Below, one piece after another: positions 2,779-4,049 of a DNA stretch of 6,526 nucleotides. The notes below the pieces were generated by a model, which searched no databases, was not told the DNA's origin, and worked only from the letters and a program-made list of their open reading frames with translations. The position numbers and the translations under genes are program-made. Positions within the stretch are counted from its first letter, which is position 1, and every line of letters begins with the position of its first letter. The DNA comes from an uncultured Clostridia bacterium. GTDB lineage: Bacteria; Bacillota; Clostridia; Oscillospirales; Oscillospiraceae. Where the stretch lies: positions 1 to 6,526 of the forward strand of contig CAMGPO010000069.1 in assembly GCA_946060825.1 (NCBI GenBank), in the 5' to 3' direction.

Positions 2779-2919
2779 ATGAACACAACTACAGAAGACC
2801 GCGAATTAGCCGAACAGATTCGGCAATATATGGTATCGCACCACCTGACGCTCGCAACCGCAGAAAGTTGCACAAGCGGACGAATAGCAGCCACTCTCAC
2901 CTCTGTGAGTGGAGGGTCC
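2779..2919 (+). CDS. pncC: CinA C-terminal domain / PncC-type nicotinamide-nucleotide amidase, 5' fragment
   Basis: An ATG 44 bases after the GH5 stop opens a frame whose first ~47 residues match the start of stand-alone CinA C-terminal domain proteins. These deamidate nicotinamide mononucleotide to nicotinate mononucleotide in pyridine nucleotide salvage. The key block is LATAESCTSGRIAATLTSVSGGS (residues 25-47 in order, split here only for reading: ATAESCTSG at 26-34, LTSVSGGS at 40-47). Ser30 lies in the AESC motif, where the family's catalytic serine sits. The family is about 160 residues, so more than two thirds is missing. After Ser47 the frame reads Thr-Arg and hits TAG at 2926-2928, because the DNA changes to unrelated lepA sequence. 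The loss is therefore due to the join, not to a mutation. No terminator is visible between GH5 and this gene, so it may share the upstream transcript. A longer bifunctional CinA is excluded because the N-terminal domain is absent. Confidence 0.82.
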
Positions 2920-2921
2920 AC
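2891..2921. other. Chimeric junction between Bacteroidales-like and Desulfovibrio-like DNA
   Basis: Recognisable CinA coding runs rightward up to about 2915-2919, and recognisable LepA coding runs leftward down to Val377 (2921-2919). Neither protein continues past this point, so the exchange lies within about 2913-2921. GC richness, promoter style, ribosome-binding style and apparent taxon all change here. A short inverted repeat, GTGGA-GGG-TCCAC (2909-2921), sits on the join. A second imperfect hairpin, CCACT-CT-CAC with loop CTCT and GTG-AGTGG (2891-2912), lies directly beside it. No insertion sequence ends, target duplications or attachment sites are seen. The best reading is a chimeric clone or misassembly; a natural breakpoint cannot be excluded from sequence alone. 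Confidence 0.85.
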
Positions 2922-4049
2922 CCGGTAGATGACCGAGGGCGCCGTGGCGATGAGGTCCACCTCGAATTCGCGTTCCAGGCGTTCCTGGATGATCTCCATA
3001 TGCAGCAGGCCCAGGAAGCCGCAGCGGAAGCCGAAGCCCAGGGCCTGGGAGGTCTCGGGCTCGAAGCTGAAGGCGGCGTCGTTGAGCTGGAGCTTTTCCA
3101 GCGCGGCCTTGAGGTTCTCGTAATCGTCGGATTCCGAGGGATAGAGGCCGCAGAACACCATGGGCTTCACTTCCTTGAAGCCGGGCACGGGCTCGGTGGC
3201 CGGATTGGCCGCCAGGGTGATGGTATCGCCCACGCGGGCATCGCCCAGAGACTTGATGCTGCCGCAAAGGAAGCCCACCTCACCGGCGTGCAGTTCCTTC
3301 ACGTCCGTAGCCTCAGGCGAGAACACGCCCAGGCGCAGCACTTCATATTCCTTGCCGGTGCTCATGAGGCGCACCATGTCGCCCAGTTTCACCCGGCCGT
3401 CCACCACGCGGAAGAGCACCACCACGCCCTGGTAGCTGTCGTACCAGGAGTCGAAGATCAGGGCCTTGAGGGGGGCGTCCAGATCGCCGCCCGGCGCGGG
3501 CAGACGGTTGACGATGGCTTCCAGCACGGCGTCCACGCCCAGACCGGTCTTGGCGGACACGGGCAGGGCGTCGGTGCAGTCCAGGCCGATGGCTTCCTCG
3601 ATCTCTTCCTTGACGCGATCCACCTCGGCGCTGGGCAGGTCGATCTTGTTCAGCACGGGCACGATCTCGTGGTCGTGGTCCAGGGCCAGATAGACGTTGG
3701 CCAGGGTCTGGGCCTCCACGCCCTGGGTGGCGTCCACCACCAGCAGCGCGCCTTCGCAGGCGGCCAGGGAGCGCGACACTTCGTAGTTGAAGTCCACGTG
3801 TCCGGGCGTGTCGATGAGGTTCAGCTCATATTCCTCTCCGTTGGCAGCCACATAGGGGATGCGCACGGTCTGCGCCTTGATGGTGATGCCGCGCTCGCGT
3901 TCCAGATCCATCTTGTCCAGGTACTGCTGGCGGGCCTCGCGCTGGCTGACGACCTTGGTCAGCTCAAGGATGCGGTCGGCAAGGGTGGACTTGCCGTGGT
4001 CGATATGGGCGATGATGCAGAAATTGCGAATATGATCCAGACTGGGCAT
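2919..4049 (-). CDS. lepA: Elongation factor 4 (LepA) GTPase, truncated at the junction
   Basis: LepA/EF4 is a ribosome-associated translational GTPase acting in translation under stress and in initiation or ribosome biogenesis. From ATG at 4049 the protein starts with HIRNFCIIAHIDHGKS, containing the P-loop AHIDHGKS (14-21). It continues with RERGITIK (51-58, switch I), DTPGH (80-84, switch II), NKID (134-137) and SAK (165-167), so the GTPase domain is complete. Domain II follows (about 190-285), then the LepA-specific PMVFCGLYP (297-305) and GFGFRCGFLGLLHMEI (338-353). Homology ends at SVIYRV (372-377). LepA is normally about 600 residues, so the last third, including the LepA-specific C-terminal domain, is missing. 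The frame stays open to a stop at 2727-2729, but those last ~63 residues are antisense of the GH5 and cinA genes and are not real LepA. The sequence resembles Desulfovibrio-type LepA. An AGGA site (4059-4056) six bases before ATG supports the start. Confidence 0.95.

Follow-up and report, generated by a model that had tools for sequence, protein, structure and literature searches.

The window analysed here, a stretch of 6,526 bases that makes up the whole of contig C69 in draft genome G000 (1,567,936 bases in 306 contigs), raises the question of how cinA/pncC, read from the left, and lepA, read from the right on the other strand, came to be severed at one and the same point. We regard it as nearly certain that the contig is a technical chimera, in which bases 2916-6526 come from a member of the Desulfovibrionaceae and bases 1-2915 likely from a member of the Bacteroidales, and which was probably fused via a library fragment or a scaffold link and not in a cell. 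The features of the contig are collected in Table 1.

Table 1. Features of the 6,526-base window, in window coordinates
Feature	Position	Strand	Evidence or remark
Left half, DNA likely Bacteroidales	1..2915		GC 0.539; GH5 matches, promoter matches
Glycerate kinase, 3' end cut by contig end	2..853	-	TIGR00045, E 2.1e-103
Bacteroidota-type promoter match towards glycerate kinase	886..917	-	TTTG...TAnnTTTG
Bacteroidota-type promoter match towards ridA	953..984	+	TTTG...TAnnTTTG
RidA family protein	1032..1409	+	TIGR00004, E 4.5e-48
GH5 glycosidase	1406..2734	+	PF00150, E 2.1e-46; best solved relative 6xso, named Cellulase
cinA/pncC, first 47 codons only	2779..2919	+	PF02464, residues 8-47; homology ends at join
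Join	2915..2916		Overlap from 2916-2919 (about 4 bases, Pfam) to 7 bases (one NCBIfam profile)
Right half, Desulfovibrionaceae chromosomal DNA	2916..6526		GC 0.644; 99.8% to G158:C68, 99.0% to G159:C1
lepA, first 378 of 601 codons	2916..4049	-	TIGR01393, E 8.3e-193; 601-codon copies in G158 and G159
RidA family protein of right half	4222..4596	-	TIGR00004, E 2e-40
MmgE/PrpD family gene, broken frame	4601..5931	-	PF19305 and PF03972 on separate frames
Gene without Pfam match, cut by contig end	5915..6526	-	In-frame TAG as in G158; 481-codon frame in G159

Position and edges of the join

The join falls between bases 2915 and 2916 of the contig, with about 4-7 bases of overlap between the homologies; its left edge was set by protein profiles and its right edge by DNA alignment. 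On the CinA side, the Pfam CinA profile (PF02464) covers residues 8-47 of the 49-residue piece with an E value of 4.8e-10, the last matched codon being 2917-2919, and one NCBIfam profile extends the match by a single residue, to residue 48. A profile search of the whole genome that read through stop codons carried the CinA alignment on to 2949 with a score that was no better (37.3 vs 39.7 bits), and the window DNA from 2916 rightwards, including the stretch under this read-through alignment, is Desulfovibrionaceae lepA. The TAG that ends the cinA frame at 2926-2928 lies in this foreign, right-half sequence. On the other side, the lepA alignment with the genomes G158 and G159 starts at base 2916 and extends to the right; to the left of 2916 the window and the Desulfovibrionaceae locus agree at 28 of 100 bases, which is chance level.

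A preliminary description of this DNA had placed an abrupt join within 2891..2928, with CinA homology running in from the left and LepA homology from the right, each of them stopping there. Both homologies do end within a few bases of one another inside that range, at Pfam residue 47 for CinA and at base 2916 for the lepA DNA, and the accompanying estimate that lepA has lost its last third was close, given that 378 of its 601 codons are left.

The open reading frame created by the fusion of lepA with left-half DNA encodes 440 residues. All 120 listed of 7,995 scored proteins cover only 85-86% of this hybrid frame, and the tail past the join is covered by none of these 120. The best of the LepA matches are mostly proteins of 601 residues with 98-100% identity over the shared part (the 120 listed reach down to 91%), and an organism is named for 11 of the 120, Desulfovibrio in every case. 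One of the candidates, P0123 (405 residues), was considered as a second example of the join and rejected, because it has the normal LepA continuation beyond the break. The 34-base join sequence has no match in viral_contigs.

Origin of the right half

The right half was searched against 288 genomes in the family of G060 (Desulfovibrionaceae bacterium HAN036, which holds L021). Some match was found in 285 of them, but only the matches in G158 and G159 span the whole of 2917-6526, the next best genomes, G114 (98%) and G115 (97%), matching over 1,135 bases of lepA only. Aligned base by base from 2916, the right half is 99.8% identical to G158 over 3611 bases, with 7 mismatches and no gaps, and 99.0% identical to G159. 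In both of these genomes lepA is uncut, the DNA continuing to the left of 2916 as lepA to give 601 codons in each, and the source locus of the right half is thus found uninterrupted elsewhere; in G159 it lies within a contig of 3,081,808 bases. A few kilobases past the right end of the window, the locus in G158 and G159 has frames whose protein starts resemble those of a putative ATP-synthase cluster.

Three frame breaks occur in the right half. The frame change in the MmgE/PrpD gene is common to the window and G158, a frame of 439 codons being present in G159, and the in-frame TAG at 6341-6343 in the gene that follows MmgE/PrpD is likewise present in the window and G158 and absent from G159. 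Because of this distribution, the frame change and the TAG have the look of genes decaying at strain level within this Desulfovibrionaceae lineage and not of sequencing error. Sequencing error as the source of the breaks was mostly rejected, since two of the three are also in G158, which leaves the stop near 5459 as the one break confined to the window. A 12-base tandem copy at 4859-4882, in the MmgE/PrpD gene, is also seen in the window and G158; G159 is without it.

Origin of the left half

The left half likely comes from a Bacteroidales bacterium, as suggested by its protein matches and promoter-like motifs. One match to the GH5 protein is 98% identical, and the organisms named, in 4 of the 120 matches listed, are Duncaniella, Prevotella and Bacteroidales (2). 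Matches to TTTG-N16-23-TAnnTTTG, built on the TTTG...TAnnTTTG motif that we take to be the Bacteroidota promoter consensus, number two in the window, and two were seen in none of 200 shuffles, with a spacing range of N16-23 that was picked after the site on the + strand had been seen. Both lie to the left of the join, and the earlier claim that promoter type switches there is borne out to that extent, the spacing range having been chosen post hoc. The companion claim of a switch in Shine-Dalgarno use fared less well: the contrast is weak, and among the six starts inspected a clear GAGGAG is present only at the right-hand ridA.

Searches for the genome from which the left half was taken covered several collections. 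Of 59 relatives of the bin, 13 had matches, of at most about 120 bases, and of 298 other genomes sampled from the bin's phylum, 25 had matches, of at most about 200 bases; in both searches only a few top candidates in each genome were scored. Over the 18 kb that surround the locus in G158 and G159, the left half has short chance matches only; a GH5 scan of viral_contigs found no relative, and comparison of RidA with solved structures gave no clue to origin. When the N-terminal 46 residues of the window CinA were joined to the bin CinA as a query, the CinA of the left organism was not among the 120 matches listed, the best matches to the window piece within these 120 being about 72-79% identical over 24-29 residues. 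Searched separately in genomes, as the preliminary description had suggested, the right side was found uncut (G158 and G159), but the source of the left side was not found. The two sides come from different genomes, the right one being 99.8% identical to G158 and the left one Bacteroidales-like by its GH5 protein.

The bin as a third organism

The preliminary account read like one genome cut into by another, which is what would be expected if the bin represented a genuinely rearranged Desulfovibrio or Bacteroidales genome, so that only half of the contig was foreign to it. We give this explanation almost no credence, because the bin has a lepA of its own, one piece at an end of C59 and another at an end of C213, and the LepA pieces are 66% and 59% identical to the window LepA, and a complete cinA of its own on C79, for which the two matches with an organism name (in a search whose query was mostly the C79 protein) are both Oscillospiraceae. 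On these sequence comparisons, the bin looks like an Oscillospiraceae-like, probably Clostridia-type genome that is distinct from both halves of the contig. The starts of C59 and C213 overlap by 55 bases, so that the bin's lepA is simply split over two contigs.

No second copy of either half was found in the bin, where, besides C69 itself, only conserved stretches match, chiefly those of the bin's lepA. Nor does the bin contain the part of the Desulfovibrionaceae lepA that lies past the break, the matches to it being the bin's own lepA at 70% and one short match of 35 bases. Since the bin has its own cinA and lepA and no second copy of the halves, both halves of the contig look foreign to it.

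These observations bear on whether the fusion could have taken place by natural illegitimate recombination, in which both pieces were taken up and joined inside one cell, which might be that of the bin's organism. Bacteria exchange DNA, and a join without homology is not forbidden by sequence alone. Recipient DNA that would flank a transferred insert is not seen, however; the contig ends inside genes of the foreign halves on both sides and has no visible bin-type DNA, neither half has a second copy in the bin, and both of the cut genes would be duplicates there. Moreover, the ten translated stretches of the window contain no mobile-element gene by NCBIfam and Pfam, and no integrase, transposase or phage or plasmid homology at the break. 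There are no phage matches to the window, and the 16 plasmid records that match do so only within 2925-4032, in lepA, at 71-88% identity. Recombination of this kind is accordingly extremely improbable. The same applies to its fullest form, a homology-free fusion of Bacteroidales and Desulfovibrio chromosome segments that was kept by a third bacterium as extra DNA, which we consider scarcely credible because it needs two foreign pieces, with neither recipient flank nor mobile element, carrying genes that the bin already has.

Route of the fusion

End overlaps of at least 15 bases were sought among 43 contigs, two of them at one end only. The only such overlaps, between C59 and C213 and between C70 and C80, are both exactly 55 bases long, and C69 has none of at least 15 bases with any of the 43 contigs compared. 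End overlaps of maximum k are left by metaSPAdes and MEGAHIT (PMC10914622). Exact 55-base overlaps between the bin contigs are the mark of assembly by a de Bruijn graph with k = 55.

Collapse in the assembler graph, with the assembler walking from one genome to the other through a k-mer common to both at the join, deserves consideration: chimeric contigs are described as one result of misassembly across several sources (PMC8201837), and the assembler is the main influence on how many there are (PMC11261854). With k = 55, however, a graph would cross between genomes only through 55 common bases, and the two homologies overlap at the join by about 4-7 bases, as judged on the left side by protein profiles, which makes a shared k-mer there unlikely. 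No 12-mer is common to the 200 left-side bases next to the join and the 600 bases around the Desulfovibrionaceae break, and the one 11-mer that is common to them is on the opposite strand. Furthermore, an identity of 55 bases at the join would place the TAG at 2926-2928 inside the cinA of the left organism. Graph collapse is therefore very unlikely.

With a shared 55-mer unlikely, the technical chimera probably arose at another step: the fusion may already have been present in a chimeric library fragment or read, or chimeric read pairs may have led a scaffolder to make it. A join with a few common bases could stem from a chimeric read formed through microhomology at end repair. Chimeric reads made in this way from single strands are described for formalin-fixed tumour samples (PMC8674242), and they resemble the present case as a possible source of a join with few common bases, although the samples described there are of another type. 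The preliminary description had proposed a chimeric clone or a misassembly. An artefact is supported by the uncut right-hand source in G158 and G159 and by the presence of both genes in the bin, but "clone" is better replaced by "library fragment or scaffold link".

The contig is without biological novelty, and its cut cinA and lepA are most likely uninformative about living genomes. It should not be taken as evidence of an inter-phylum transfer, of a truncated lepA or of cinA and lepA as neighbours. As the overlaps of contig ends expose the k of the assembler, they narrow the cause of a chimera.

Composition and placement in the bin

GC is 0.539 to the left of the join and 0.644 to its right, and the whole window is at 0.597, whereas 40 sampled contigs of the bin have a mean GC of 0.61 (sd 0.021). 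The tetranucleotide distance of the whole window to the bin is 4.07, and 9 of 40 bin contigs are at least as distant. The left half alone is at a distance of 8.40, and none of 92 bin pieces is as far; bases 2916-5830 are at 7.53, and one of the 92 is as far. The contig was likely mis-binned, as composition suggests, because the mean of its two wrong compositions (54% and 64% GC), 59.7%, is close to the 61% of the bin contigs sampled, and this averaging would account for the placement of the whole contig in an Oscillospiraceae-like bin. The window illustrates how a chimera whose two sources are both foreign can likely enter the bin of a third genome.

Like the inter-genome chimeric contigs in the GUNC paper (PMC8201837), the window has different sources in one contig while the recorded contamination stays low, here at 1.13% in a genome recorded as 67.76% complete. 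A lower sensitivity of marker-based scores to such foreign material is in keeping with the same paper. Unlike in the GUNC-type cases set out there, the bin's own organism seems to be neither of the two sources, the compositions of which cancel. The GUNC paper also states that misassemblies are relatively rare and that mis-binning is the larger source of error (PMC8201837); the contig would be both misassembled and mis-binned, which, given that statement, counts against its reading as a technical chimera. A benchmark with Illumina pairs gives 22.15 chimeric contigs per genome for MEGAHIT and 2.63 for SPAdes (PMC11261854). The window is like these cases in being a chimeric contig from metagenome assembly, and differs from them in that the benchmark results in question are counts, with no base-level breaks (PMC11261854).

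The composition does switch at the join, as had been described: when GC is scanned along the window in steps of 10 bases, the best split falls at 2910. With a 2-kb contrast of 13.3, the window has the largest value of 41 contigs, followed at 12.6 by C85, the genes of which are ordinary-looking throughout by eye. Since the window leads only narrowly, composition was rejected as sole proof of the chimera and is kept as support. A single GC step larger than that of the window is present in 2 of 40 bin contigs, C5 and C62. In C5 (L154, 1-4134), GC is 0.49 in the first 1.7 kb and 0.62 in the rest, and PHROGs matches were obtained for all four of the proteins given from the low-GC end, one of them weak. 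This end is likely a prophage piece, and C5 was not counted as another chimera on account of its phage-type genes. In C62 (L132), the GC step near 1530 is 0.108 (0.537 to 0.645), slightly above that of the window.
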